Below, in pieces: positions 14,299 to 40,690 of a DNA stretch of 49,148 nt. The stretch covers positions 1 to 49,148 of the forward strand of contig JAMPXY010000004.1 in assembly GCA_023700945.1 (NCBI GenBank), written 5' to 3'. The position numbers and the translations under genes are program-made. The notes under the pieces are model-generated. The model did no database searches. It worked only from the letters and a program-made list of their open reading frames with translations, and was not told where the DNA came from. Every line of letters begins with the position of its first letter. Within the stretch, counting starts at the first letter, position 1. Source of the stretch: Alphaproteobacteria bacterium (GTDB lineage Bacteria; Pseudomonadota; Alphaproteobacteria; Micavibrionales; Micavibrionaceae).

Positions 14299-16377
14299 TT
14301 AGGCGACTTTCGAGGTAGCGCCATCCAGCAAGCCTTCCCGGCGGAGCAGGGCATCGGGATCTGCATCCTGTCCCCGGAAATTGCGGTAGAGAATCGCCGG
14401 ATGTTCGGTGCCGCCGCGCTCTAGAATTTCACGGCGGTATTTCATCAGCCGTTCCTCATCATAAACATGATTTTCCGTCATGTAATAGAAAGCATCGGCG
14501 TCCAGTACCTCGGCCCATTTATAACTGTTATAGCCTGAGGCATAACCACCGCCGAAAATGTGGCTGAAGGAGGTGGATGTTGGCCCCGCCAGCATCGGGA
14601 ACAGTCTTGTGTCTTTGGTCACGTCTTCTTCAAATTTAAACACGTCAAAACCGTATTTTTTCTCGATCTCTTCGGGGTTGGTGGTGTACCACAGCATATC
14701 CAGTGTGGCGAGATTGACCTGACGCAATCCCATCGAGGCCACCATGAAGTTTTTCGAGTCATTCAACTTGCGGAACAGATCATCGGGAATTTTTTCACCG
14801 GTTTGCCAGTGACCGCTAATCAGATCAAGCGTTGCGCGCGTATAGGCCCAGTTTTCTTGCACCTGTGAGGGGAGCTCGACAAAATCCCATTTAACGTTGG
14901 GGCTGGCGAGCGAGCGATATGTCACATCGGACAGCAGACCATGCATGGCGTGACCCATTTCATGGAACAGAGTCAGGACTTCATCATGGGTCAGCAGTGA
15001 AGGTTTCTCTGGCAGGGGTTCGGTGAAATTGCAGACAATCGCAATGATCGGGCGTTCGACTTTGTCGGCAAACAGGCCTTGTGAGCGATATCCGGTCATC
15101 CAGGCACCGGGCTTCTTGCCACTGCGTGGATGGAAATCGGCATAGAGCGTTCCTATAAAGGCTTTGGTTTTTTTATCGGTGACATCGAAGGCCTTCACAT
15201 CCGCTGCCCAGGTTGGATAGGCGGTATTTTCGGCAAAAACCACGCCAAACTGGCGGCTGAAATGTTCGAAACAGCCGGACAGCACTTTTTCCAGCGGGAA
15301 ATAAGGGCGTAAATCTTCACTGGAAAACCCGTACACCGACTCTTTCATTTTTTCGCTGTAATAAGCGACATCCCAAGGCTTAATCTCAGACGGACCGCCG
15401 TGGGCCGCCGCAAATTTTTTCAGGGCGTCAAGGTCGCGCATGGCGGCATCCTTGTAGGCATCCTTGAGCTTGCCAAGGAAGGCAAAGACAGTCTCCGGCT
15501 TCTCCGACATGCGGTCTTCCAGCACAAAATGGGCCGGGGTGGGGTAGCCCAAAAGGTTGGCGCTTTCATAACTGAGTGTGACGATTTGCTTGATCGTGTC
15601 CTGATTGTCGTATTGGTCTTTCCAGGCACGACTGCCGAAGGCTCGCCACATTTTCTCACGCAGGGCGCGGTTATCGGCATAGGTAACAAACGGGCCATAG
15701 CTTGGGTAATCGAGGGTAAAGAGCCATTGGCCGGGATGATTTTTCTTCTCGGCACGGGCTTTGGCGGCGGTGATGACATCGGCGGGCAATCCTGCCAGAT
15801 CGGCTTCCTTGTCAATCAACAGGCTAAACGCCTCCATCGAATTCTTGATATTTTCGTTAAAGGCGGTGCCAAGGGTCGAGGCGGCGATATTGATTTCCAT
15901 CATCCGCTCTTTGTCTTTGCCACTGAGCAGGGCCCCGCTGCGACGGAAACCGTCATAGGTGTTTTTCAGCAGGGTTTTTTGCTCGGTGGTCAGGGCCGGG
16001 CTGTCATGCTCCTTGTCCCAGACCGCCTTGATCCGGGAGAACAAGGCCTCATCCATCGCTACGGATGAATAAAATTCAGCCAGTTGCGGGGCAACGGTTT
16101 GTTTAATGTCAACCAAAGCCGGGGTGGCGACCGCACTGATCTGGTTGCCGAGAATTTCCATGACATGGCTCAGGGTTTCTCCCATCACCTCGAGAGCGAC
16201 GATTGTATTCTCAAAATTCGGGGCGTCCGGATGGGCTTTGATCGCGGCCAGCTCCTGTTTGGCTTGGGCCAGTCCCTCTTCAATCGCGGGCAGATAGTGC
16301 TCATCCTTGATCCGGTCAAAGGCCGGGGCATGGTTGGGGAGAGATGACGGAGCCAGCAACGGATTGAGTGCGGTCAT
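14299..16377 (-). CDS. M3-family oligopeptidase (copy 1)
   Basis: A 692-aa zinc metallopeptidase of the oligopeptidase A/Dcp (thimet) type that cleaves short peptides in the cytosol. The zinc site is in LTLFHEMGHAMHGLLSDVTYRSLASPNVKWDFVELPSQVQENW, at about residues 468-510. The downstream Tyr/Gly substrate loop FSHIFGGGYASGYNSYKWAEVLDADAF is also present. No signal peptide is visible (MTALNPLLAPSSLPNHAPAFDRI). GAAGAGG precedes the ATG. It is closely similar along its whole length to the next gene, pointing to tandem duplication. PrlC/OpdA is the closest named role, but with three paralogs here the symbol cannot be assigned. Confidence 0.92.
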   Translation of the reverse strand: MTALNPLLAPSSLPNHAPAFDRIKDEHYLPAIEEGLAQAKQELAAIKAHPDAPNFENTIVALEVMGETLSHVMEILGNQISAVATPALVDIKQTVAPQLAEFYSSVAMDEALFSRIKAVWDKEHDSPALTTEQKTLLKNTYDGFRRSGALLSGKDKERMMEINIAASTLGTAFNENIKNSMEAFSLLIDKEADLAGLPADVITAAKARAEKKNHPGQWLFTLDYPSYGPFVTYADNRALREKMWRAFGSRAWKDQYDNQDTIKQIVTLSYESANLLGYPTPAHFVLEDRMSEKPETVFAFLGKLKDAYKDAAMRDLDALKKFAAAHGGPSEIKPWDVAYYSEKMKESVYGFSSEDLRPYFPLEKVLSGCFEHFSRQFGVVFAENTAYPTWAADVKAFDVTDKKTKAFIGTLYADFHPRSGKKPGAWMTGYRSQGLFADKVERPIIAIVCNFTEPLPEKPSLLTHDEVLTLFHEMGHAMHGLLSDVTYRSLASPNVKWDFVELPSQVQENWAYTRATLDLISGHWQTGEKIPDDLFRKLNDSKNFMVASMGLRQVNLATLDMLWYTTNPEEIEKKYGFDVFKFEEDVTKDTRLFPMLAGPTSTSFSHIFGGGYASGYNSYKWAEVLDADAFYYMTENHVYDEERLMKYRREILERGGTEHPAILYRNFRGQDADPDALLRREGLLDGATSKVA

Positions 16378-16478
16378 GAAAAAACCTCTTCAGGGGATTG
16401 GCGAATCAGATGAAAGATTATATAGGGCGCCAGCCCGCCTGTTCCAGAGGGAATTACAGGGCTTTGGGATAGATGAAA

Positions 16479-16501
16479 GGGGGATACATGGTGTATCCCC
16501 C
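16479..16501 (-). terminator. Terminator after M3 copy 2
   Basis: Perfect 10-bp stem GGGGGATACA / TGTATCCCCC with a 3-nt loop, followed on the minus strand by TTTC. It lies 30 bp beyond the stop of the second M3 gene, so the two tandem M3 genes are probably separate transcripts. Confidence 0.75.
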
Positions 16502-16530
16502 GGTTCAGCACACAAGTGACCCCTGATCTT

Positions 16531-18603
16531 CTACATAAATGTTGGTTTGGGCGGCAGCAGACCCTCGCGGCGGGGCAGGGCCTGGGGGTCGGCATCCTGT
16601 CCCCGGAAATTGCGGTAAAGTGTGGCTGGATTATCGGTACCACCCTTGGCCAGAAATTCTTTGCGATATTTATTCAGGCGATAGCTGTCATAGGTCGTAA
16701 GCTCGGTCAGATATTCAAAGGCATCAGCATCGAGAACCTCTGCCCATTTATAGCTGTAATAACCGGCATCATAGCCACCGGAAAAAATATGGGTGAAGGA
16801 CGTTGAAGTGGGCCCGGCCAGCATCGGGAACAGGCGTGTATCGGCGGTGACGGCTTCTTCGAAAGCAAAAATATTGAAGCCGAATTTGTCTTCAATGTCC
16901 TTGGGGTTGGTATTGTACCAGGCCTGATCCAGTGTCGCGAGATTGACCTGACGCAGCCCGGCAGCCCCGGCCATATAGTTTTTGGAAGCCACCATTTTTT
17001 GGTAAAGATCTTCAGGAATTTTCTCGCCGGTCTGGTAGTGCCCGCTGATCAGCGCGAGGGTTTCTCTGGTAAACGCCCAGTTTTCTTGTACCTGTGAAGG
17101 CAGTTCAACCGCATCCCATGGTACATAGGGGCTGGCCTTTGAACGGTAGGTTACATCCGAAACCAGACCGTGAACCGCGTGGCCCAGTTCGTGGAACAGG
17201 GTTGTGACTTCATCATGATCGAGCAGGGCTGGTTTGCCAGGTAGCGGCTTGGTGAAATTGCATTCAATTGCAATCACCGGACGTTCGATCTGGCCTTGAT
17301 AGAGGCCCTGTGCCCGGTAATCGGTCATCCATGCCCCGCCTTTTTTGCCCTTGCGCGGATGAAAATCGGTATAGAGCGTACCGACAAAAGCACCGGTTTT
17401 TTCATCGGTGACGTCAAAGGCTTTCACATCCGGGTGCCAGGTCGGGTATTGCTTGTTTTCGCTGAACTGAATACCGAATTGTTGACTGAAATGCTGGAAG
17501 GTTCCGGCCAGAACTTTTTCCAGCGGGAAATAGGGTTTTAAATCCTCGCTGGAGAAACCGTACAGTTCCTGCTTTTGTTTTTCTGCATAAAAAGTTATGT
17601 CCCAAGGCTTGAGATCGTCGTGCCCCATTTGGGCAGCGAACGCCCTCAGCGATTCCATATCTTTAAGGGCTGCGGGTTTGTAGACGTTTTTTAATTGATC
17701 AAGGAAGGTCGCCACGGTTTGTGGTGTTTGCGCCATGCGGTCTTCCAGCACAGTTTCCGCATGATTGTTATATCCCAGCAGCTGCGCCCGTTCATGCTTA
17801 AGGGTTAGGATGCGCCGGATCAGTTCCTGATTGTCATGTTCTGTCTGCCAGCCCCGGCTGCCATAAGCCCGCCACATCTTCTCGCGCAGGCTGCGGTTTT
17901 CGGCATAGCTGGCAACCGGGCCGTAACTCGGGTAGTCGAGGGTAAAAACCCATTGATTTTCGAGGCCGCGGGTCTTGGCTTCTTCAGCGGCGGCGGCAAC
18001 GGCGTCTTCGGGAATCCCCTTGAGATCATCCTTATCGGTAATGATCATGGCGAAGGCTTCGACGTCCTTCTTGACGTTCTCGCTGAAATCGGAATCCAGC
18101 GTCGACATTTCCTCTACGATTTCTTTCAGGCGTTTTTTGTCAGCGCCCTTGAGCAAGGCCCCGCCGTTGCGGAACCCGTCATAGGTTTTTTTCAGCAAGG
18201 TGTGCTGCTCAGTCGTCAGGGTGGGGTCATCATGGTGCTGATCCCATACCGCCTTGACGCGCTTGAAAATTTTTGTGTCGGTGAGGGCTGCCATATTAAA
18301 CCGGGCACGCAGCGGTGAAATTTTATCCTCTGTCGCTTTCAGTTTGGGGGTTCCGGCTGCCAGCATCTGGTTGCTGAGCAGGCTGGACAGGATACTGAGC
18401 CGCTCACCCGCCAATTCAAGGGCTTCGATCGTATTGGCGAACGTGGGTGTCTCCGGATTGTTTTTAAGCGCCCTGATATCGGCACGGGCCTCTTTCACCG
18501 CTGTGCGCAGGGCTGATAGAAAATGTCTGTCCTTGATCTTATCGAACGCGGGAGCTTCATTCGGCAGCCCCGAGGGTGCCAACAGCGGATTGACAGATGC
18601 CAT
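16531..18603 (-). CDS. M3-family oligopeptidase (copy 2)
   Basis: A 690-aa paralog of copy 1 in the same orientation, 153 bp upstream of it. The zinc-binding and catalytic segment is TTLFHELGHAVHGLVSDVTYRSKASPYVPWDAVELPSQVQENW, with the C-terminal FTHIFSGGYDAGYYSYKWAEVLDADAF. All key residues (HExxH and the downstream Glu) are intact, so it should be active. The N-terminus (MASVNPLLAPSGLPNEAPAFDKIKD) is nearly superimposable on copy 1 and has no signal peptide. It lies 90 bp downstream of a secreted-protein gene on the same strand. Confidence 0.92.
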   Translation of the reverse strand: MASVNPLLAPSGLPNEAPAFDKIKDRHFLSALRTAVKEARADIRALKNNPETPTFANTIEALELAGERLSILSSLLSNQMLAAGTPKLKATEDKISPLRARFNMAALTDTKIFKRVKAVWDQHHDDPTLTTEQHTLLKKTYDGFRNGGALLKGADKKRLKEIVEEMSTLDSDFSENVKKDVEAFAMIITDKDDLKGIPEDAVAAAAEEAKTRGLENQWVFTLDYPSYGPVASYAENRSLREKMWRAYGSRGWQTEHDNQELIRRILTLKHERAQLLGYNNHAETVLEDRMAQTPQTVATFLDQLKNVYKPAALKDMESLRAFAAQMGHDDLKPWDITFYAEKQKQELYGFSSEDLKPYFPLEKVLAGTFQHFSQQFGIQFSENKQYPTWHPDVKAFDVTDEKTGAFVGTLYTDFHPRKGKKGGAWMTDYRAQGLYQGQIERPVIAIECNFTKPLPGKPALLDHDEVTTLFHELGHAVHGLVSDVTYRSKASPYVPWDAVELPSQVQENWAFTRETLALISGHYQTGEKIPEDLYQKMVASKNYMAGAAGLRQVNLATLDQAWYNTNPKDIEDKFGFNIFAFEEAVTADTRLFPMLAGPTSTSFTHIFSGGYDAGYYSYKWAEVLDADAFEYLTELTTYDSYRLNKYRKEFLAKGGTDNPATLYRNFRGQDADPQALPRREGLLPPKPTFM

Positions 18604-18693
18604 CGTGATAACCTTTTCCTGTAATATTTTTATTATAGAAAAGACTGTAGGGCAGCTGCTGGTGCAGGGTCAAGAATAATTTAACGGCTTATT

Positions 18694-19470
18694 TCAGGGA
18701 TCAAGCGTAATGGTGGTACTGTCCATGCCGCCTTCCAACGTCTTGGAATCAAAGGCAGTTACAACTACCCGATAGGTCCCGGCTTCCTCGAATTTGAGGT
18801 TGGTGCCATAGATACCGGGCTGTTCGGCCTTCTCCAGCTTGATACTGGCCAGCAAGACTTCTCCGCGATAAATCCCGGCCTCGACCTCGTAGCGCTCGGG
18901 TGGCCACGGCGTATCCTTGTCAATATGACAGCCGCAGAGTTTGGTCACATTGACTTGTAATGGCAGGGTACCTTCGGCATTGAACTTAGCTTTACGATTG
19001 GCGGGCGGGCTCATGACGTCGACAATGAAGCCGGGAATCTCAACGATAATGCCGTTGCCTTGGGTATAATCTTTGCCCGGTATCAACAGGTAATCGGCGC
19101 TGGCCTTGGCCAGCGATTGCATCTGTCCGTAAGGCCCGGAAACTTCGACGGTGACGGGGGTTGGCTCATAGATATCCAGCGAAAATTCAAAGCGCGATGT
19201 GTCTTCATCAACGATGACGGCGTCACGCGCTACGCTGGGGGTCATGACCAGATCACGTTTGCCGGAGTTGCCTGTGGTGCTGCCTTCGACCAGAATATCG
19301 CCATCGCGCTTATCACGTACGATGATGTAGGCAGCGCCAACGGATTCACCGATAAACAGCGCGTCTTTGGATTTGACGCTGATTTTGACATTGGTATCGA
19401 CGGCGTACGCGGGCGTTGCGGCCAGCAACAAGGCGCAGGACGTAAGGGATGCCAGAATAACTTTTTTCAT
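18694..19470 (-). CDS. Secreted protein with Ig-like/beta-sandwich character, unknown function
   Basis: About 258 aa with a Sec signal peptide (MKKVILASLTSCALLLAATPAYA). The ORF track starts two codons earlier at a GTG; I prefer the ATG because AAGGA sits 9 nt before it but only 3-4 nt before the GTG. The mature part has alternating beta-strand-like segments, a CGCH motif (VTKLCGCHIDKDTPWPPERYEVEAGIY) and an end typical of Ig-like or Big-type domains (EEAGTYRVVVTAFDSKTLEGG). It lies between the M3 peptidase genes and diverges from the third. A binding or adhesion role is possible but not shown. Confidence 0.75.
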   Translation of the reverse strand: MKKVILASLTSCALLLAATPAYAVDTNVKISVKSKDALFIGESVGAAYIIVRDKRDGDILVEGSTTGNSGKRDLVMTPSVARDAVIVDEDTSRFEFSLDIYEPTPVTVEVSGPYGQMQSLAKASADYLLIPGKDYTQGNGIIVEIPGFIVDVMSPPANRKAKFNAEGTLPLQVNVTKLCGCHIDKDTPWPPERYEVEAGIYRGEVLLASIKLEKAEQPGIYGTNLKFEEAGTYRVVVTAFDSKTLEGGMDSTTITLDP

Positions 19471-19733
19471 AAACACGTATCCTTGTGAATCTTAACCGCT
19501 ACCAGTGTTAACCGTAGTGGCCACGCGGTCAAGGGGAGGGAAAAAAGCAAGCAGGACTTCAAAAAAATCGCAAACGGTGCGGTGAAGCATCGATAATTCT
19601 GCATAATTCTACGGAAGGGGCTTTTCTTTTTCATAGAGTGCGTCATTATCGAGTCAATATAAAAATAAAAATGCGCCCTGCCGCCGTCTTTTAAAGACGC
19701 TGGACAGTGTGCTTACAGGGAGAAAAAAGTCAG

Positions 19734-21908
19734 ATGAATAGTCTGTGGACGAACCTGCCCGCGCACCTGAGGGATAACCCCTTCTTTCATTTCTCGGCAA
19801 AGACGAATTTCGTTCCGGCGTGGGATAAGATCACGCCCGCACATGCTTTGCCGGCGATGGAATATATTTTTGACAATATGCGCCGCGAGATCGAGGCGAT
19901 TGCGCAAAATCCGGCCAAGCCCAATTATAAGAATACTGTCGAAGCTTTGGAAAAGGCTTACAGCCTGCCGATGCACTTCTTCCTTTCGGTCTTCACCACC
20001 ATGCCTAAAGACGAGGAAGAGCAAAAACAGTATGACGATGTCGAACAAATTATGTGCGACAAATTTCACGAACTTTACATGGATGTCTTTCAGAACAAGA
20101 CATTGTTCAACCGTTTTTTGTTTTTGACAATCACTCCGGAAATTATGCGCCTCACGGGCGAACGGGAAAAGCTCTACGGCATGTACGCCCAGACCTTCAA
20201 GGCCTGCGGTATTATGAAGAAACCGGCCCAGCAACAGGCGTTGCGCGATATGGGACGGCAAATTTCTACTCTGGCGCGGATCTCGCAAAAGAATATGCGT
20301 GAGTCAGAAAAGGCCGCTTTCATTCGTGTTTCTAATCCGGCGCGTCTGGCTGGTTTGTCCGATGTCCTGATCGGCGCTGCGGCGGCTGAAGCTAAAAAGC
20401 GTGGGTTTGAGGGTGAGTGGTGTTTTGGTGTCGGCACCAGTACTTATGGCCCGTTTATGAAGTCGGTACAGGATCGTGATCTGCGCCGGGAAATGTGGAT
20501 ACTGAACAGTCGTACCGGAACAACCGGTGAGTTTGATAACCGCCGCACTATTTTGAAATTGATCAAGCTGGAACATGAAATGGCCCGGATGGAAGGGTAC
20601 CGCAATCCGGCCGCCCACAGCTTGCAATACAACATGGCGCGCACCAGCAAACGTGTTGAGAGTTTTTTGCGTACGGTACGCAAGGCGGCCAAACCTGTGG
20701 CGACAGAAGAGATCGCGGTGCTAAAGGCTTTTGCTGCACAGGAAGATCAGATCAAGCATCTTAAGCCGTGGGATCTCGACTATTATAAAGAAAGACTGAA
20801 AAAGCGGGTGTTGGGCTTCGATGAGGAGCAACTGCGTCCCTACTTTGAAATGGAAGCGGTGTTGCAAGGGGTGTTCCGCCATTTCAACAAACTGTTCGGC
20901 CTTAAATTCACCGAAAGCACCGCCTATCCCAAATATGACCCGGATGTGAGAACATTCAATGTTACCAATGCCCGTACCGGCAAGCATATGGGTGTGCTTT
21001 GCATGGATTTATTCGATCGTTCCGGTAAACCGGCGGGCACGGCCTGGAATATCAGTGCGGTTTCGCAAGGGTTGTTCGAAGGTGAAAATCGCCGCCCGGT
21101 CGATATGGTGGTGACCAAATTCATCAAGGGGCAGGACGGACAGCCGACCTTGCTCACCCATTATGATCTTGAAGTTCTGTTGCACGAAATGGGTCATGCC
21201 ACCCATAATTTGTTAGGCCAATGCCGTTATCAGAGTTTTTCGGGAACATCGGTAGATACGGATTTTGTTGAATTTCCTTCGCAAATTCAGGAGAGCTGGG
21301 CTTATTTGCCTGAGGTGCTGGATGATATTGCCCGTCACCATGAAACCGGAGAAAAAATTCCCGATCACATCAAAAAGAAGATGAAAGAGGGACGCAAATT
21401 CATGGCGGGCAGTTATGTCATGAATTATGCGATGAAGGGTTGGCTTGATCTGGCGTGGTACAGGAAAGACCCCTCAAATACGCGTAGTATCGAGGCCTTC
21501 GAACGACATGTGACCCGCGATTTCATGATCGGGAACATGGAGCGTCCGTTGGTATCTCCGCGCTTCCATCATATTTTCGGCGGTGGCTATGAGGCGGGTT
21601 TCTACAGCTATCAATGGTCGGAAATGATGAGTGCGCAGCTGTTTGAAAAATTTGAAAAACACGGCGCCTATAACCGCTCTTTGAGTGCCAGCTTCAAAAA
21701 AGCCCTAGCGGTTGGGGGCAGTCGCGAAGAAGCTGATACCTTCTACACCTTGACTGGGCGTCATCCGCGTATCCAGCCCTTGCTGCGGCAATATGGCTTG
21801 CTGGGTAAGCAGTTTAATTATGCGGCTGCCTTTAAACCGCAGGTGGCGGTCAATGATAACCGTCAGGACGTCAGCCTGCCCAAGCCCGCCAAACTGCATA
21901 TCTCTTGA
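19734..21908 (+). CDS. M3-family oligopeptidase (copy 3, divergent)
   Basis: A 724-aa M3 metallopeptidase with the zinc motif LEVLLHEMGHATHNLLGQCRYQSFSGTSVDTDFVEFPSQIQESW at about residues 480-520 and FHHIFGGGYEAGFYSYQWSEMMSAQLF downstream. It is clearly less similar to copies 1 and 2 than they are to each other, with extra N-terminal sequence (MNSLWTNLPAHLRDNPFFHF) and a ~30-residue basic tail. I chose the ATG at 19734 over the GTG 27 bp upstream because GGGAG sits before it. The next gene, mnmC, follows 31 bp later, so the two may be co-transcribed. Confidence 0.9.
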   Translation: MNSLWTNLPAHLRDNPFFHFSAKTNFVPAWDKITPAHALPAMEYIFDNMRREIEAIAQNPAKPNYKNTVEALEKAYSLPMHFFLSVFTTMPKDEEEQKQYDDVEQIMCDKFHELYMDVFQNKTLFNRFLFLTITPEIMRLTGEREKLYGMYAQTFKACGIMKKPAQQQALRDMGRQISTLARISQKNMRESEKAAFIRVSNPARLAGLSDVLIGAAAAEAKKRGFEGEWCFGVGTSTYGPFMKSVQDRDLRREMWILNSRTGTTGEFDNRRTILKLIKLEHEMARMEGYRNPAAHSLQYNMARTSKRVESFLRTVRKAAKPVATEEIAVLKAFAAQEDQIKHLKPWDLDYYKERLKKRVLGFDEEQLRPYFEMEAVLQGVFRHFNKLFGLKFTESTAYPKYDPDVRTFNVTNARTGKHMGVLCMDLFDRSGKPAGTAWNISAVSQGLFEGENRRPVDMVVTKFIKGQDGQPTLLTHYDLEVLLHEMGHATHNLLGQCRYQSFSGTSVDTDFVEFPSQIQESWAYLPEVLDDIARHHETGEKIPDHIKKKMKEGRKFMAGSYVMNYAMKGWLDLAWYRKDPSNTRSIEAFERHVTRDFMIGNMERPLVSPRFHHIFGGGYEAGFYSYQWSEMMSAQLFEKFEKHGAYNRSLSASFKKALAVGGSREEADTFYTLTGRHPRIQPLLRQYGLLGKQFNYAAAFKPQVAVNDNRQDVSLPKPAKLHIS

Positions 21909-27950: not shown

Positions 27951-28079
27951 TTTTTAAAGAAAATCTATGACTTAAACTGGCCATGATTATGGCGTATTCT
28001 GCTTGCGAAGGATTACTCCTCCTGCATCGTATTAATTGTAGGTTGGGTCAATAGCTGGATACCACGAAAGGAATAGATC

Positions 28080-28709
28080 ATGTTTTCTCATCTTGTTTTA
28101 CCGATGGCCGCTGCGCTGCTTTTAAGCACAGGAATAGCGTTTGCCGAAGATAACGCCGAGTCTTCACCGCCTGCGGCAACCAAGGAGGCCGACAAGCATT
28201 ACAGTCCACAAGAGGAAATTGATACCGATGGCGATGGTCAGGTCTCAGGGGCTGAGTCCGAGGCGTTCTCGCGTGAGCAATTTTCCAAAATTGATGCAGA
28301 TAAAGATGGCAAGCTTAGTCAGGGTGAGCTTGAGTCCTTCCATAAGGATCGTAAGGAAAACCGGGCTGAGGGTAAAGGCAAAGACAAAGCGCAAACTAAG
28401 GGTGATCAGATTCCTGCAGAGATGAAGGAAAAAATGAAAGCCCGGATGGAAGAGGAGCGCAAAGCCCGTGGGCCGATGATGGATACCGATGGTGATGGTG
28501 TCGTCAGTGAAGATGAATTCGTTGCTCATGGCCAGCAACGGCAAAACCGGATGGATGTTAACGGTGATGGCAATGTCACCAAAGAGGAAGTCATGGAAAT
28601 GCGTCAAAAAAGACGCGCCGAACATGAGCAAAGACGTCAGGATTTGCGGGACAAGGCTGGCGAAGGCCGTGAACGTCGTGGAGCCCCTGCTGAGACACCG
28701 GCAGAATAA
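28080..28709 (+). CDS. Exported EF-hand protein with four calcium-binding loops
   Basis: A 209-aa protein with a Sec signal peptide (MFSHLVLPMAAALLLSTGIAFAED). Four canonical 12-residue EF-hand loops are visible: DTDGDGQVSGAE (48-59), DADKDGKLSQGE (72-83), DTDGDGVVSEDE (135-146) and DVNGDGNVTKEE (159-170). A Lys/Glu-rich helical spacer separates the two pairs. The C-terminus is basic and Arg-rich. It should bind Ca2+ in the periplasm or outside the cell. AAAGGA precedes the ATG. It lies 29 bp upstream of an ECF sigma factor and is probably its operon partner. Confidence 0.88.
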   Translation: MFSHLVLPMAAALLLSTGIAFAEDNAESSPPAATKEADKHYSPQEEIDTDGDGQVSGAESEAFSREQFSKIDADKDGKLSQGELESFHKDRKENRAEGKGKDKAQTKGDQIPAEMKEKMKARMEEERKARGPMMDTDGDGVVSEDEFVAHGQQRQNRMDVNGDGNVTKEEVMEMRQKRRAEHEQRRQDLRDKAGEGRERRGAPAETPAE

Positions 28710-28738
28710 AAAGGTCGATATATAGCAGGACATCTTTC

Positions 28739-29320
28739 ATGGATGATACGGACGAAGGCCTGATGAGACGCATACAAAAGGGCGATCATCAGGCCTTTTC
28801 CTTACTGGTCAGGCGGCATAGTGCGCGTTTTTATGGACTAAGCTGGCGCTTGCTCGGGAATGAGGCTGAGGCTGAAGATGTGGTGCAGGATGCCTTTGTC
28901 AAATTATGGGCGCAGCCTGATTTATTTAAGGTCGATGCCGGAGCCCGCTTCACGACCTGGTTTTATCGCGTGGTCAGCAATATGGCGACTGACCGTCTGC
29001 GGGGACGCAAACGCTGGGCCGCGCCCGAGAGTATGGATATGCTGCCGGATCAGGCCAAACGGTCAGATCAGGTGCTGGAGGAGACTGAAATTCAAGAGAT
29101 GCTCGAGCAAGCGATCCGTAATTTGCCTGAGCGACAGAGGTTGGCCTTGACCTTGTGTTTTTATGAGGGTTTAAGCATCCGCGAAGCCAGTGTGGTTATG
29201 GATGCCGGTGAGAAAGCCATTGAGTCATTATTAATGAGGGCCAAAGCGGGACTCCGCACAGAACTGGCCAAGGGCGGCCTGATTGGCCCACGGGAGGAAC
29301 GTCATGAGCGAACAGCTTGA
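28739..29320 (+). CDS. ECF-type RNA polymerase sigma factor
   Basis: A 193-aa sigma-70 family member with region 2 (about residues 10-80: DHQAFSLLVRRHSARFYGLSWRLLGNEAEAEDVVQDAFVKLWAQ and FTTWFYRVVSNMATDRLRGRKR) and region 4 (about 120-175: IRNLPERQRLALTLCFYEGLSIREASVVMDAGEKAIESLLMRAKAGLR). Regions 1 and 3 are missing, as in ECF sigma factors. AGGA lies 8 nt before the ATG. It overlaps the next gene by 17 bp, which encodes a small one-TM protein that is its likely anti-sigma factor. The gene order resembles CnrH in CnrYXH-type systems. Confidence 0.9.
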   Translation: MDDTDEGLMRRIQKGDHQAFSLLVRRHSARFYGLSWRLLGNEAEAEDVVQDAFVKLWAQPDLFKVDAGARFTTWFYRVVSNMATDRLRGRKRWAAPESMDMLPDQAKRSDQVLEETEIQEMLEQAIRNLPERQRLALTLCFYEGLSIREASVVMDAGEKAIESLLMRAKAGLRTELAKGGLIGPREERHERTA

Positions 29321-29630
29321 TAAAGGACAGCTTGATATCGATGATCTTTTGGCCAGACGGGCCGAGGTGATGATGAAACCCGATCTCACTGAACGGATTA
29401 TTCATGCGGCGATGCGTACCCCGCAATCCACCTCGGGGCATGGGGCTTTTAGTGCTGTGGTCGCTGAATTGCTCTCCTGCTTCATACTGCCGCGTCCGGC
29501 CTTGTCGTTGGCAGTGTGTTTGCTGATCGGGGTAACGGGGGGGTGGTTGACGAATATATCTCCTTCGCCATCCTATGAATCTGATGACGTATTTGATTTG
29601 GTAGTGATCAATGAAGAGGGGTGGCTATGA
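29304..29630 (+). CDS. Putative one-TM anti-sigma factor (CnrY-like position)
   Basis: A 108-aa protein. I chose the ATG at 29304 (MSEQLDKGQLDIDDLL) because GGGAGGA lies just before it; the ORF-track start is 7 codons upstream. The N-terminal ~65 residues are cytosolic, with the acidic/amphipathic DIDDLLARRAEVMMKPDLTERIIHAAM that could embrace a sigma factor. One transmembrane helix follows (PALSLAVCLLIGVTGGWL) and a short acidic tail (SYESDDVFDLVVINEEGWL). Size, topology and position between an ECF sigma gene and a CnrX/CpxP-like gene support the anti-sigma assignment; sequence similarity alone does not. Confidence 0.65.
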   Translation: MSEQLDKGQLDIDDLLARRAEVMMKPDLTERIIHAAMRTPQSTSGHGAFSAVVAELLSCFILPRPALSLAVCLLIGVTGGWLTNISPSPSYESDDVFDLVVINEEGWL

Positions 29631-30133
29631 ACCGGAACCTTAAAATCGTGTTTACGCTCTCGTTGCTGCTGAATGTTATGCTGCTGGGGGCTGTGGCCAG
29701 CTGGGGTTATCGTTATCTGGCGGATCGTCCGGTGGCGATGGAACCGTTGAAGCCTGAACTGAGTCATGATATCGCCCGCCACATGGTTAAGGCCCGGCGT
29801 GAACACGAAAATTTGCATCAGGATTTAAAAGCCGCGCGGCAGGCTATGAATAAAGTGATGGCGGCTCAGAATTTCAGTGAAGCCGATTTTGCAGAGGCGG
29901 CGCAGAAAATTGATCAGGCCCAGCAAGCCCTCTATAAGGCGCGAAGCGAGGCTATGTTGAATATGGCCAAGAACATGTCCACCGAAGACCGTCAGCACAT
30001 GGCTCGCCAGATGGAGACCCGGGGGAAAGAGATCTCCGAGCGGCGCGGCAGTGGTGATAATGTTGACAGGTTGCGCGAGCGGCTTAAGGAAAGACGTCGC
30101 CAGCTCGAAAATAGCCCGCCCCCGGTGGAGTAA
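29627..30133 (+). CDS. CnrX/CpxP-like periplasmic sensor (metal-resistance/Spy-type fold)
   Basis: A 168-aa protein anchored by an N-terminal helix (IVFTLSLLLNVMLLGAVASWGYRYL) with a helical periplasmic domain. It shows LSHDIARHMVKARREHENLHQDLKAARQAMNKVMAAQNFSEADFAEAAQKIDQAQQALYKARSEAMLNMAKNMSTEDRQHMARQM, the helix-hairpin pattern of the CpxP/Spy/ZraP and Metal_resist group. Several His and a HMARQM segment could be metal ligands. The ATG overlaps the previous stop (ATGA) and GAGGGG is upstream. With its neighbours it forms a sigma/anti-sigma/periplasmic-sensor set. The signal sensed (metal, Ca2+ or envelope stress) cannot be read off. Confidence 0.78.
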   Translation: MNRNLKIVFTLSLLLNVMLLGAVASWGYRYLADRPVAMEPLKPELSHDIARHMVKARREHENLHQDLKAARQAMNKVMAAQNFSEADFAEAAQKIDQAQQALYKARSEAMLNMAKNMSTEDRQHMARQMETRGKEISERRGSGDNVDRLRERLKERRRQLENSPPPVE

Positions 30134-31500: not shown

Positions 31501-32397
31501 TTAGCGATCCTCGTGCATTTTGGCAATCATTTCACCCAGTGTCCGGAATTCGTTCTCGCGGGGGTGGCCGTGCCGCCAGACGAGGCCAATCTGGCGGCTG
31601 GGCTGGGGATTGGCAAAGCGCTGGATCATCACTCCCGGCGGCAGGGTTTGATGGCTGACCGCCATGGCCGGGAGCAAGGTCGCGCCGTAACCATGCTGTA
31701 CCATCTGGATCAGGGTCGCGAGGCTGGTCGCACCAAACGTGCGTTGCTGGCCGGTTTGCAGGCGACAGGCGGCCAGAGCGTGGTCGCGCAGGCAATGGCC
31801 ATCCTCAAGCAGCATGACATTATGTCGCGATAAATCGCTAAGGCTGGCCAGATCCTCGCGTAGCGGTTTGTTGCCGGGCATCGCAATCATAAACGGCTCC
31901 GACCACAGTTTCATCTGGGTGTTGCCGGGTGTGTCATAGGGAAAGGCCATCAACACCATGTCAAGTAAATGCTGATTTAATGCGGATAAAAGCTGCGCCG
32001 TTACATCTTCTTTTAACTGAAGCTCAAGCGCTGGAAATTGGGTCTGCAGCGCGGGCAACAGCGCAGGCAGCAGATAAGGGGCAATGGTCGGGATCACCCC
32101 GATCCGCAGCGTGCCGGTAAAGGGCGCCCTTTTCATTTGGGCCAGTTGTACGAAATCTTCGGCTCGCAGAACAATATCCCGGGCAGGTAACACCAGCTCC
32201 TGCCCCAGCGCGGTCAGGGCTACGGTACGCTTGGTCCGGGTGAATAAGGGCGCGCCGAGCAGGGTCTCCAGCGTGTGCAGGCCTTCGCTTAAAGTCGGCT
32301 GGGTGACGCAGCAGCGGGCGGCAGCCTTGCCAAAGGACAGGGTTTCGGCCACCGCGATGAAATATGTCAACTGACGCAGGGTCGGGATTTCAGCCAT
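31501..32397 (-). CDS. oxyR: LysR-family peroxide sensor OxyR
   Basis: A 298-aa LysR regulator. The N-terminal winged HTH reads LRQLTYFIAVAETLSFGKAAARCCVTQPTLSEGLHTLETLLGAPLF. The redox site in the effector domain is LLEDGHCLRDHALAACRL, with two Cys nine residues apart exactly as in E. coli OxyR (C199/C208). H2O2 would form a disulfide between them and activate transcription. The gene diverges from ahpC with a palindromic candidate operator between, the classic OxyR arrangement. trhO and a hypothetical gene follow on the same strand. Confidence 0.93.
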   Translation of the reverse strand: MAEIPTLRQLTYFIAVAETLSFGKAAARCCVTQPTLSEGLHTLETLLGAPLFTRTKRTVALTALGQELVLPARDIVLRAEDFVQLAQMKRAPFTGTLRIGVIPTIAPYLLPALLPALQTQFPALELQLKEDVTAQLLSALNQHLLDMVLMAFPYDTPGNTQMKLWSEPFMIAMPGNKPLREDLASLSDLSRHNVMLLEDGHCLRDHALAACRLQTGQQRTFGATSLATLIQMVQHGYGATLLPAMAVSHQTLPPGVMIQRFANPQPSRQIGLVWRHGHPRENEFRTLGEMIAKMHEDR

Positions 32398-32428
32398 GGA
32401 AATTTCCTATTAGTGCCCATGTTTATTA

Positions 32429-32443
32429 ATAGGAAAATCCTAT
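32429..32443 (+). promoter_or_regulatory. Candidate OxyR operator between oxyR and ahpC
   Basis: ATAG-N7-CTAT palindrome (ATAGGAAAATCCTAT), the half-site pattern of the OxyR consensus. Another CTAT lies at 32407-32410, about two helical turns away, but does not fit the standard N7 spacing. The palindrome is 31 bp from the oxyR start and about 90 bp from ahpC, suiting both autoregulation and activation. Confidence 0.6.
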
Positions 32444-32534
32444 TTAAATCAAGAAAATTCCGATTGGATTTTTGCGGTGCGAAAGCGCATGTTATGCCTG
32501 AATTTTCCCCCACTGCAACTGCTAGGAGTCCACT

Positions 32535-33104
32535 ATGCTCGGTATCGGCGACAAACTGCCTGAATTTTCCATCACAGGCGTCAAACCCAAATTCATGAAG
32601 CACGAAGAAAACGGTCAGTCCGCATTCGAAACCCTGACTCAGGAGAGTTTTGAAGGGAAGTGGAAGGTTCTGTTTTTCTGGCCGAAGGATTTCACTTTTG
32701 TCTGCCCGACGGAAATTGTCGAGTATTCTAAACTCAAAGGCGATCTTGAAGACCGCGATGCGGTGATTCTGGGCGGCAGCACCGACAACGAGTTCTGCAA
32801 GCTGGCCTGGCGCCGCGAGCACAAGGATTTGCACAATCTTGATATGTGGATGTTCGCCGATACCAACGGTTCGCTGGTGGATGGTCTGGGTGTGCGTGAC
32901 TACGAAGCCGGTGTCGCGCTGCGCGCAACTGTGATTGTCGATCCGCACAATGTGATCCAGCATATCTCGGTGAATAACCTCAACGTGGGCCGCAACCCCA
33001 AGGAAGCCCTGCGCATTCTGGACGCTTTGCAAACCGATGAACTGTGCCCATGCAACCGTCCGATCGGTGGCGATGTTATCGACCTGCAAAAAGCGGCGGC
33101 CTAA
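32535..33104 (+). CDS. ahpC: Alkyl hydroperoxide reductase AhpC (peroxiredoxin)
   Basis: A 189-aa 2-Cys peroxiredoxin that reduces H2O2, organic peroxides and peroxynitrite. The peroxidatic Cys57 is in FWPKDFTFVCPTE, and GGSTDNEFCKLAWRREH follows. The C-terminal DELCPCNR has two Cys (about 171 and 173) as in the mycobacterial-type AhpC that is recycled by AhpD rather than by AhpF. The next gene, 9 bp downstream, is ahpD, consistent with that. AGGAG is upstream. It is probably induced by OxyR from the divergent intergenic region. Confidence 0.95.
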   Translation: MLGIGDKLPEFSITGVKPKFMKHEENGQSAFETLTQESFEGKWKVLFFWPKDFTFVCPTEIVEYSKLKGDLEDRDAVILGGSTDNEFCKLAWRREHKDLHNLDMWMFADTNGSLVDGLGVRDYEAGVALRATVIVDPHNVIQHISVNNLNVGRNPKEALRILDALQTDELCPCNRPIGGDVIDLQKAAA

Positions 33105-33113
33105 GGTGTGATC

Positions 33114-33674
33114 ATGAGTATTGAAACCTTAAAAAACCAGCTGCCTGAGTATGCCAAGGATATCAAGCTGAACCTGTCGACACTGGCCGGAGAAGAACTT
33201 CTCACTGACCAGCAGAAATGGGGAAGCTTTTTATCCTGTGCGCTCGCGGGCGGTAATGAAACGGTGATTCAGGCGGTCCATGCCGAAGTCGCCACCCGTC
33301 TCAGTGCCGAAGCCTTGAATGCCGCCAAGGCGGCAGCGGCGATTATGGCGATGAACAATGTCTATTACAAGTTCACCGGCATGATTGAAAACCCGGAATA
33401 CCGCACCATGTCAGCCAAGCTGCGCATGAATGTGATCGCCAATCCCGGCGTCGACAAAGTCGATTTCGAATTGTGGTCGCTCGCGGTTTCGGCGCTCAAT
33501 GGCTGCCAGTTCTGCGTCAATGCCCATGAACCGATCCTGCTCAAGGGCGGTCTGAGCAAAGAGCAAGTGCAGGCGGCGGTGCGGATTGCGGCGGTGGTAC
33601 AGGCGACATCTTCCGTGCTGACAGGAGAAGCCGCCTTGCAAGGTACCCGTCCGGCGATGGCCAACGCCGCCTGA
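33114..33674 (+). CDS. ahpD: Alkyl hydroperoxidase AhpD
   Basis: A 186-aa all-alpha protein that reduces AhpC. The catalytic CxxC and proton-relay His are in [13 protein letters not shown] (C131, C134, H138), nearly the same numbering as in M. tuberculosis AhpD. The start was set to the ATG giving [22 protein letters not shown], which matches the family, rather than the GTG two codons earlier. AAGGTG lies upstream. It forms an ahpC-ahpD operon closed by a strong terminator. Confidence 0.95.
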
Positions 33675-39203: not shown

Positions 39204-39284
39204 ATTACCATAATATTGCAAATGATCGGGAAATAGGGTAGGGTGCCGCCAGTTGTGAGAGCCGGACAAGCCGGAGCAGGCCTT

Positions 39285-39980
39285 ATGAACCAGACCGAGC
39301 GGACTATTCAACAGATTTTTGAGAGAGGGGCGCAGGCCCTCGAGGCCATGTTTCGACCGGGCCGGGCGCTGCATCTTGGGATCGACTGGCAAAAACTGTA
39401 TTGTGATCCGGGCTTTGCGGCGAGCCAGTGCGGCGATCTCAAGCGGACACAAAAAATTCTGACCACGCTCGCGCGTATGGATCAGACCGTTGCAGAACTG
39501 CGCCCGCTACTGCCGACATGCTGGATATATCACGATGTGCCTCTGCACCAGAGCTTGCTGCTGGATGAACGTATCCTTGACGGTTTGGGCGTAGAGCAAG
39601 CCCGGCGCAAGCTCGATGAATTGCGGGCCGAAGCCCATCACATTTGTGCCACTGTCCGGCCCGGTGACCGCTGCTTTCCCAAGCCCGGCTATGATGCCTA
39701 TCAAAGTCGTGAGTTACAGGACTATCTCGCGCAATCAGGCATGACAGTTCACCTGATCAGCGGACTGGTGCGTAACGATTGTGTCCGCAAAAGCGAGAAG
39801 GGCGGAGCGGCCCGTGGCTATCAGATGTTTGTGATCGAGGATTTAACGGTGAATGATTATGAATACACCGATGAGTTCTATCTCGGGCTTTATATCGAAG
39901 CCAATCGTCGCGGTACCCATTGCGTGCGTGCGGACGACGTCAAACGTATTATCAATAAAGCACAGGGATTGTCAGTCTGA
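39285..39980 (+). CDS. Isochorismatase-like cysteine hydrolase (paralog 1)
   Basis: About 231 aa; the track ORF begins 14 codons upstream and I chose MNQTERTIQQIFERG. The isochorismatase-like triad is visible: Asp in LHLGIDWQKLYCDPGF, Lys in CFPKPGYDAYQSRELQDYL, and the nucleophile Cys in LISGLVRNDCVRKSEKGGAARGYQMFVIEDLTVND. It should hydrolyse an amide or vinyl-ether bond, as nicotinamidases and isochorismatases do; the substrate is unknown. A ~30-residue helical N-terminal leader precedes the domain. It is in tandem with a paralog and lies 81 bp downstream of rsmI. Confidence 0.75.
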   Translation: MNQTERTIQQIFERGAQALEAMFRPGRALHLGIDWQKLYCDPGFAASQCGDLKRTQKILTTLARMDQTVAELRPLLPTCWIYHDVPLHQSLLLDERILDGLGVEQARRKLDELRAEAHHICATVRPGDRCFPKPGYDAYQSRELQDYLAQSGMTVHLISGLVRNDCVRKSEKGGAARGYQMFVIEDLTVNDYEYTDEFYLGLYIEANRRGTHCVRADDVKRIINKAQGLSV

Positions 39981-39982
39981 TC

Positions 39983-40690
39983 ATGATCATGAATAAATCA
40001 CCGCAAGCGCGCATGAGGGACAAGATCAACGAAATTTTCGCGCAGGGTGAAGTATCCCTGTGTGACACCCTGGCTGCCGGAAAAATCATCACGCATATTG
40101 GCATAGACTGGCAGCGGCTTTATTGTGATCCTGATTTTGAAGCGAGTCCGCACCGCAAGCTCAATAGTCCGGGAGTGCAGCAGGCGCTGGTGCAGATGCG
40201 GGCAACAATTGATGATTTACGCAGGCTGATGCCGACCATATGGGTGGTCCACGATATCAAAATTCAGAATGATTTTCTGGACCCTGATCATGAGGTATTC
40301 AATCTAGAGGGCAGGGAGCGGCAAAGGAAGATGGCTCTCTTGCGGATACAATCTCAGGATATGTGCCTCCCCACCTTGCAGGGAGAGCCAATTCTTAAAA
40401 AGCCTGAATACTGCGCCTTTGCAAAAACGCCTTTGCATGAGTTCTTGCAGGCGTGCAAAGTCGATGCTGTTTTGCTCTCCGGCGTCCTGAGGTCCGTCTG
40501 TGTCAAAGAAACCGCTCTGACGTCTGTTTCAATGGGCTATGATACCTACATTGCAGAAAATTTAACGGCTGATCAAACCCTGCAACATTTTCCGTCCTAC
40601 GCGAAGAGCGTCATCGAACGTGCCGAACAGGGCATCAAGATGGTCAGGTCTGAGAATATTCAAAAGATCCTGACGGGAGCGCCGCTGTGA
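39983..40690 (+). CDS. Isochorismatase-like cysteine hydrolase (paralog 2)
   Basis: A 235-aa tandem paralog. It shares the distinctive block HIGIDWQRLYCDPDFEAS with paralog 1. The catalytic Lys is in PILKKPEYCAFAKTPLHEFL, and the Cys in VLLSGVLRSVCVKETALTSVSMGYDTYIAENLT, so the Asp-Lys-Cys triad is intact in both copies. Elsewhere they have diverged considerably, which points to an old duplication with separate substrates. It starts 3 bp after paralog 1 (or at the ATG two codons later) and overlaps yraN by 4 bp (GTGA), so it is firmly within the operon. Confidence 0.75.
   Translation: MIMNKSPQARMRDKINEIFAQGEVSLCDTLAAGKIITHIGIDWQRLYCDPDFEASPHRKLNSPGVQQALVQMRATIDDLRRLMPTIWVVHDIKIQNDFLDPDHEVFNLEGRERQRKMALLRIQSQDMCLPTLQGEPILKKPEYCAFAKTPLHEFLQACKVDAVLLSGVLRSVCVKETALTSVSMGYDTYIAENLTADQTLQHFPSYAKSVIERAEQGIKMVRSENIQKILTGAPL

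Follow-up and report, generated by a model that had tools for sequence, protein, structure and literature searches.

An EF-hand, ECF sigma factor, probable anti-sigma factor and Spy/CpxP-fold sensor operon conserved in Micavibrionaceae, with a predicted envelope regulon

We analyzed a window of 49,148 nucleotides (the whole stretch of DNA under study) from a genome of the Micavibrionaceae, an alphaproteobacterial family, of 2.1 Mb and 83% completeness. Positions 28080-30133 carry, on the plus strand, four open reading frames (Table 1), of which the last three overlap, with the geometry described in the initial annotation. The EF-hand gene is separated from the sigma gene by 29 bp, the sigma gene overlaps the gene of the 108-aa protein by 17 bp, and the latter overlaps the sensor gene by 4 bp (ATGA). 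Next to the operon lie a gene for an AMIN-domain protein and a set of convergent genes, one of which encodes a UPF0176 rhodanese. As previously remarked, no metal-efflux genes were seen adjoining the operon at this locus.

Table 1. Features of the four-gene operon and its predicted promoter (window positions)
Feature	Position	Strand	Basis or remark
Predicted ECF-type promoter: -35 CGAAGGATT, 13-nt spacer, -10 CGTA	28006..28031	+	48 nt 5' of the EF-hand ATG
Exported four-EF-hand protein, 209 aa	28080..28709	+	Pfam EF-hand_5; first gene in the family
ECF sigma factor, 193 aa, regions 2 and 4 only	28739..29320	+	Sigma70_r2, Sigma70_r4_2; PDB profile matches
Probable anti-sigma factor, 108 aa, one TM helix	29304..29630	+	Conserved motif; Asf6-type profile match
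Membrane-anchored periplasmic helical sensor, 168 aa	29627..30133	+	PF13801; Spy/CpxP/ZraP/CnrX fold

The four-gene operon is real and conserved. The order EF-hand gene, sigma gene, 108-aa-type gene, and sensor gene is found at all 18 sensor-bearing loci of Micavibrionaceae that we compared (the window counted), and the arrangement is therefore not a product of chance. The EF-hand gene had been regarded as part of the unit, and relatives indeed keep it next to the sigma gene at each of these loci. The same order occurs outside the family, in Dadabacteria, Caulobacteraceae, an uncultured alphaproteobacterium, and Oleisolibacter, as well as in two MAGs labelled Bradyrhizobiaceae/Rhizobiales. More broadly, a Metal_resist protein, the Pfam family of the sensor, is present in 191 of the 387 alphaproteobacterial genomes sampled, and nearly all of the alphaproteobacterial Metal_resist loci that we fetched (109/110) have an ECF sigma gene. 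An EF-hand open reading frame lies 5' of the sigma gene in 37 of these 110 loci, about one third, which is a lower bound because detection was pattern-based and some of the fetched stretches were incomplete.

The sigma factor has the composition of the ECF group: sigma-70 regions 2 (Sigma70_r2, 2.4e-17) and 4 (Sigma70_r4_2, 3.5e-13), no region 3, and a length of about 190 aa. Its profile matches in the PDB are SigW, RpoE, and CnrH (4cxf). The 108-aa protein encoded next belongs to no Pfam or NCBIfam family and has no PDB match. Its cytoplasmic part contains a motif, LLxxR...DLxxRIIxAA, that is conserved in 18 sequences. In this family, a PRPAxxLA segment precedes the single TM helix and the periplasmic tail ends in GWL; some of the tail conservation may stem from the ribosome-binding site of the sensor gene, which overlaps this region. 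Among the 18 members, we found neither an anti-sigma family of Pfam nor an RseA-type class I domain. The profile searches called for by the initial annotation did not return the suggested relationship with CnrY, for which the family profile has no PDB match; anti-sigma factors of the CnrY type are very divergent (PMC7406223). They did return a match (hhalign E 4.4e-6, probability 86.7%, over 68 columns only) with a family that includes Azospirillum Asf6 and the proteins encoded after the sigma gene at loci of a presumed Caulobacter genus (see below).

Asf6 has been shown experimentally to be an anti-sigma factor and to interact physically with RpoE6 (PMC12826043). The RpoE6-Asf6 pair resembles the one in the window in having a sigma factor of the same ECF kind and, downstream, an anti-sigma factor with the LAxRI motif, a segment that the 108-aa protein shares. 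It differs by the N-terminal YG-RWP part of Asf6, which is absent from the 108-aa protein, and by having neither a sensor gene nor an EF-hand gene adjoining it. Since the 108-aa protein is a shortened variant that lacks YG-RWP, we did not place it as a full member of the Asf6 type. The succession of sigma, hypothetical protein, and sensor has its own counterpart in Azospirillum, where the RpoE8 operon encodes RpoE8, a hypothetical protein, and a periplasmic heavy metal sensor (PMC12826043). On the indirect ground of the profile match, the 108-aa protein is probably an anti-sigma factor.

The first gene encodes a protein with a signal peptide, judged by eye (MFSHLVLPMAAALLLSTGIAFA/ED), and four stretches matching Pfam EF-hand_5 (3.9e-17). 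The four Ca2+ loops had been described as intact, and all are canonical (DTDGDGQVSGAE, DADKDGKLSQGE, DTDGDGVVSEDE, and DVNGDGNVTKEE). In the AlphaFold model, the second EF pair has a pLDDT of 93-95, for 74 overall. Identification as lanmodulin or XopAW was rejected since the matches were far below the cut-offs. Most members of the family have two EF hands, and the window and its same-genus sister have four. These proteins vary widely in length and loop number, and their sequence and copy number drift fast, a pattern expected of an effector or a buffer. Such variability would also suit a mere passenger, i.e., a co-transcribed Ca2+ buffer with no role in regulation or stress. We regard this as doubtful, because the EF-hand gene is the first after the promoter at 18/18 compared loci and because, in Dadabacteria and Caulobacteraceae as well, such genes stand before cassettes of this kind. 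Most simply, the EF-hand protein is a product of the response, encoded by the first gene behind an autoregulated promoter.

The search for an ECF promoter motif was successful both 5' of position 28080 and genome-wide in 61 genomes of the family. All 16 upstream regions of the family that we examined have in common a bipartite element, CGAAGGRTT-N13/14-CGTA, located 23-51 nt 5' of the start codon. A strict form (GAAGG-N16/17-CGTA) is present in 15 of the 16, against 0.015 expected by shuffling, and the remaining one has a one-base variant in which GCAGGG replaces GAAGGG. We infer that the sigma factor of the operon reads CGAAGGRTT-N13-CGTA. The GAAGG/CGTA motif is essentially absent from the cassettes of other families. 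A relaxed version, CGA[AC][GC][GA]N[TA]T-N12-14-CGT[AT], is enriched in them (5/37 and 10/72, for 0.1 expected). EF-hand genes linked to the promoter, found independently in other genomes, again lead to a sigma and an anti-sigma gene.

Across the 61 genomes, CGAAGGRWW-N13/14-CGTA occurs 134 times and the reversed pattern 49 times. With one sampled site per genome, an exported open reading frame followed the site in 17 of 30 cases, versus 3 of 30 for a control with a permuted -10 (p=0.00025, a value that is optimistic, as are those below, since the family genomes are related and phylogeny was left uncorrected). The genes recurring behind the motif encode proteins whose C-terminal segment is 17-kDa-antigen-like (a glycine-zipper domain is present in some, and lipoproteins are among them), EF-hand proteins, RND adaptor proteins, and DUF3108 proteins; LolA, a Pal-like OmpA lipoprotein, and SIMPL were found once each. 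In three genomes (L270, L285, and L290), the motif lies upstream of rpoH, the gene of sigma-32: the L290 protein is sigma-32 by NCBIfam and the other two cluster with it. This position is a parallel to E. coli, where sigma-E controls rpoH. The target genes, left open by the initial annotation, can thus now be predicted from the motif, and the kinds of genes found, exported and envelope ones, favor its suggestion of a general envelope-stress version of the circuit.

Presence of the anti-sigma gene goes with a higher number of motif sites per genome (2.97 with it vs 1.34 without it, p=0.0005), also after subtraction of the operon's own site (2.25 vs 1.34, p=0.018; both p-values are optimistic for the reason given above), whereas the control pattern shows no such difference (p=0.25). 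The anti-sigma gene was not detected in four motif-bearing genomes (G010, G015, G450, and G451), and the motif, which was derived from the operon promoters, may be recognized by a different ECF sigma factor of these genomes. The window's own genome has only four motif sites, of which just one besides that of the operon is kept in the sister genome. This second conserved site precedes the gene of a secreted 277-aa Thr/Gly-rich repeat protein (L277, 815-1648, minus strand; L275, 670-1476, minus strand), which has no Pfam family in a search with the copy of the window's genome. From the conserved site, the sigma factor probably controls this gene as a second target.

The fourth gene was expected to encode a CpxP/CnrX-type sensor. 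It does match Metal_resist (PF13801, 2.6e-10, over the cut-off), and its family profile matches Spy, ZraP, and CpxP in the PDB, with no sequence match to CnrX at E<=1. The predicted model (mean pLDDT 88) has ZraP, CpxP, CnrX, and Spy as its top Foldseek matches, with probabilities of 0.99-1.0 but E values of 0.03-0.1. The fold therefore agrees with the sigma/anti-sigma/periplasmic-sensor logic initially proposed. The metal-responsive part of that proposal fared differently. Only S12, N16, G21, and R122 are invariant in the family sensor, no His, Cys, or Met column is conserved except the start Met, and the His residues of the window sensor are mostly private to its genus. Hence, a metal site of the CnrX type, with its His/Met ligands, is not a feature of the family in this comparison by alignment columns.

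The resemblance to CnrYXH of Cupriavidus metallidurans, on which the initial annotation relied, accordingly holds for part of the system. Both have a sigma factor, a one-TM anti-sigma factor (here a probable one), and a membrane-anchored periplasmic helical sensor of the same fold. In the window, unlike in CnrYXH, the sensor has neither conserved metal ligands nor a sequence match to CnrX, the anti-sigma profile does not match CnrY, adjoining efflux genes are missing, an EF-hand gene is added, and the order is sigma, anti-sigma, sensor instead of cnrY, cnrX, cnrH. Metal resistance was therefore rejected as the main reading, given the lack of conserved ligands and of linked efflux genes. A Cnr-type regulator of heavy-metal or multidrug efflux would fit the Metal_resist fold, with CnrX among the structural neighbors, and the motif precedes an RND adaptor gene in two genomes of the family; it is nonetheless very improbable for this operon, considering its sensor columns, its neighborhood, and a predicted regulon that mainly concerns the outer membrane and periplasmic quality control. 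A homologue on a Roseomonas mucosa plasmid (L339) also points to efflux: there, outer-membrane and RND efflux genes come immediately after a trio of ECF sigma, hypothetical protein, and sensor, and other members of this kind may thus control efflux. Our results suggest that many genes annotated as "periplasmic heavy metal sensor" serve envelope stress and not metals.

We consider it likely that the system, CnrYXH-like in its layout, is a sigma-E-like switch for envelope stress that regulates itself, and not a regulator of metal efflux. In the resting state, the ECF sigma factor would be kept at the inner membrane by the one-TM 108-aa protein, a hold that the Spy/CpxP-like sensor, itself anchored in the membrane, would stabilize from the periplasmic side. 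Envelope damage, the presumed stimulus, would engage the hairpin of the sensor and loosen the sigma/anti-sigma complex. The freed sigma factor would then read the CGAAGGRTT-N13-CGTA promoters, including that of its own operon with the EF-hand gene in first position, and would drive quality-control genes of the outer membrane and periplasm, joined in some genera by rpoH. The EF-hand protein would be an induced periplasmic calcium-binding product, acting as an effector or a feedback element. In its predicted targets (periplasmic quality control and rpoH) and in the Spy/CpxP fold of its sensor, the system is reminiscent of the sigma-E and CpxP-Spy responses of E. coli, from which it differs by the lack of RseA, RseB, or a class I anti-sigma domain and by the membrane anchor of the sensor. 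The regulon predicted from the conserved promoter covers the assembly of the outer membrane and quality control in the periplasm, and extends to the heat-shock sigma gene in some genera. The predator Micavibrio belongs to this family.

The EF-hand gene had been presented as the new element of this operon. Its adjacency to an ECF sigma gene is in fact widespread and was already published in 2026 for the CaBP-SigV circuit of Caulobacter vibrioides (CCNA_02838-CCNA_02837; PMC13171946). There, the cabp promoter, mapped by 5'RACE, is SigV-dependent (GGAAA-N13-CGTTCA) and shows a response to both EGTA and acid; sigV is expressed at a mildly higher level through CaBP, and deletion of cabp is reported to give a stress or growth phenotype (PMC13171946). 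The same study describes cabp and sigV as monocistronic and draws the membrane link as an unidentified component (PMC13171946). Like this circuit, the window has an exported multi-EF-hand gene directly 5' of the ECF sigma gene, preceded by an ECF-type promoter with 13-nt spacing. Unlike it, the protein has four EF hands (CaBP has three) and the -35/-10 elements are CGAAGGRTT/CGTA instead of GGAAA/CGTTCA.

We looked at comparable loci in a family taken as Caulobacteraceae (CtrA identity up to 91%) and, within it, in a genus (g333) that is likely Caulobacter, an assignment made partly by promoter match. In this genus, the EF-hand gene, where present, lies about 26-122 bp 5' of the sigma gene or overlaps it; the sigma gene is followed by that of a one-TM protein of about 140-150 aa and then by a Metal_resist sensor gene. 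The published promoter string is found exactly at one locus, and CGACGGAAT-N13-CGTT at three others, all four agreeing in spacing and position with the window promoter. The published intragenic promoter, searched in two families, gave matches in the second and did not identify the C. vibrioides sigV locus. The probable anti-sigma factor of the window is shorter than the presumed Caulobacter type and lacks its YGG-RWP part. Since a probable anti-sigma factor and a sensor follow the sigma factor in both, the missing link of CaBP-SigV becomes a testable pair of genes, and those found 3' of sigma in the presumed Caulobacter genus are the obvious candidates.

These data also bear on calcium as a possible input. 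The EF-hand protein might sense periplasmic Ca2+ and, once bound to the sensor or to the tail of the anti-sigma factor, set sigma activity, making this a Ca2+-responsive ECF system. The leading position of its gene at every family locus compared, its recurrence 5' of ECF-sensor genes in other alphaproteobacteria, and the response of the cabp promoter to EGTA and acid, together with the mild effect of CaBP on sigV (PMC13171946), are in line with this idea. Yet, about two thirds of the ECF-sensor loci show no upstream EF-hand gene (its presence being a lower bound), and the core thus seems to function without the EF-hand protein. In the presumed Caulobacter genus, 22 of 29 sensor loci lack the EF-hand gene. 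Moreover, the cabp promoter is barely affected by loss of CaBP under acid stress (PMC13171946), and the fast drift of EF-hand sequence and copy number is that of an effector or buffer. The many loci lacking the gene and the small effect of CaBP loss argue against calcium as an obligatory input, although it may act as a modulator, and we find a calcium-sensing role unlikely. A wider version, in which EF-hand input to a CnrX/Spy-fold sensor and anti-sigma factor makes a calcium-gated ECF system, widespread in alphaproteobacteria and controlling envelope quality control and rpoH, appears slightly less plausible still.

The sigma/anti-sigma/sensor kind was already known, and the EF-hand adjacency had been published for one species. 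What is new is the recurrence of all four genes as one cassette, the promoter code and predicted regulon of this cassette, and a candidate for the missing Caulobacter link. With the predicted promoter code, the target genes and the role of calcium in the favored envelope-stress switch can be tested directly.

Elsewhere in the window, three close, homologous-looking genes (14299-21908; 692, 690, and 733 aa; two on the minus strand and one on the plus strand) have the zinc-peptidase motif HExGH (HEMGHAMH, HELGHAVH, and HEMGHATH) and apparently encode M3-family oligopeptidases. Adjacent plus-strand genes of 245 and 235 aa at 39243-40690 are apparent paralogues, isochorismatase-like hydrolases by eye. 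Finally, at 31501-33674, a minus-strand gene for a LysR-type regulator is divergent from a plus-strand pair encoding a peroxiredoxin (189 aa) and an AhpD-like protein (188 aa), a set that resembles an OxyR-AhpCD module.
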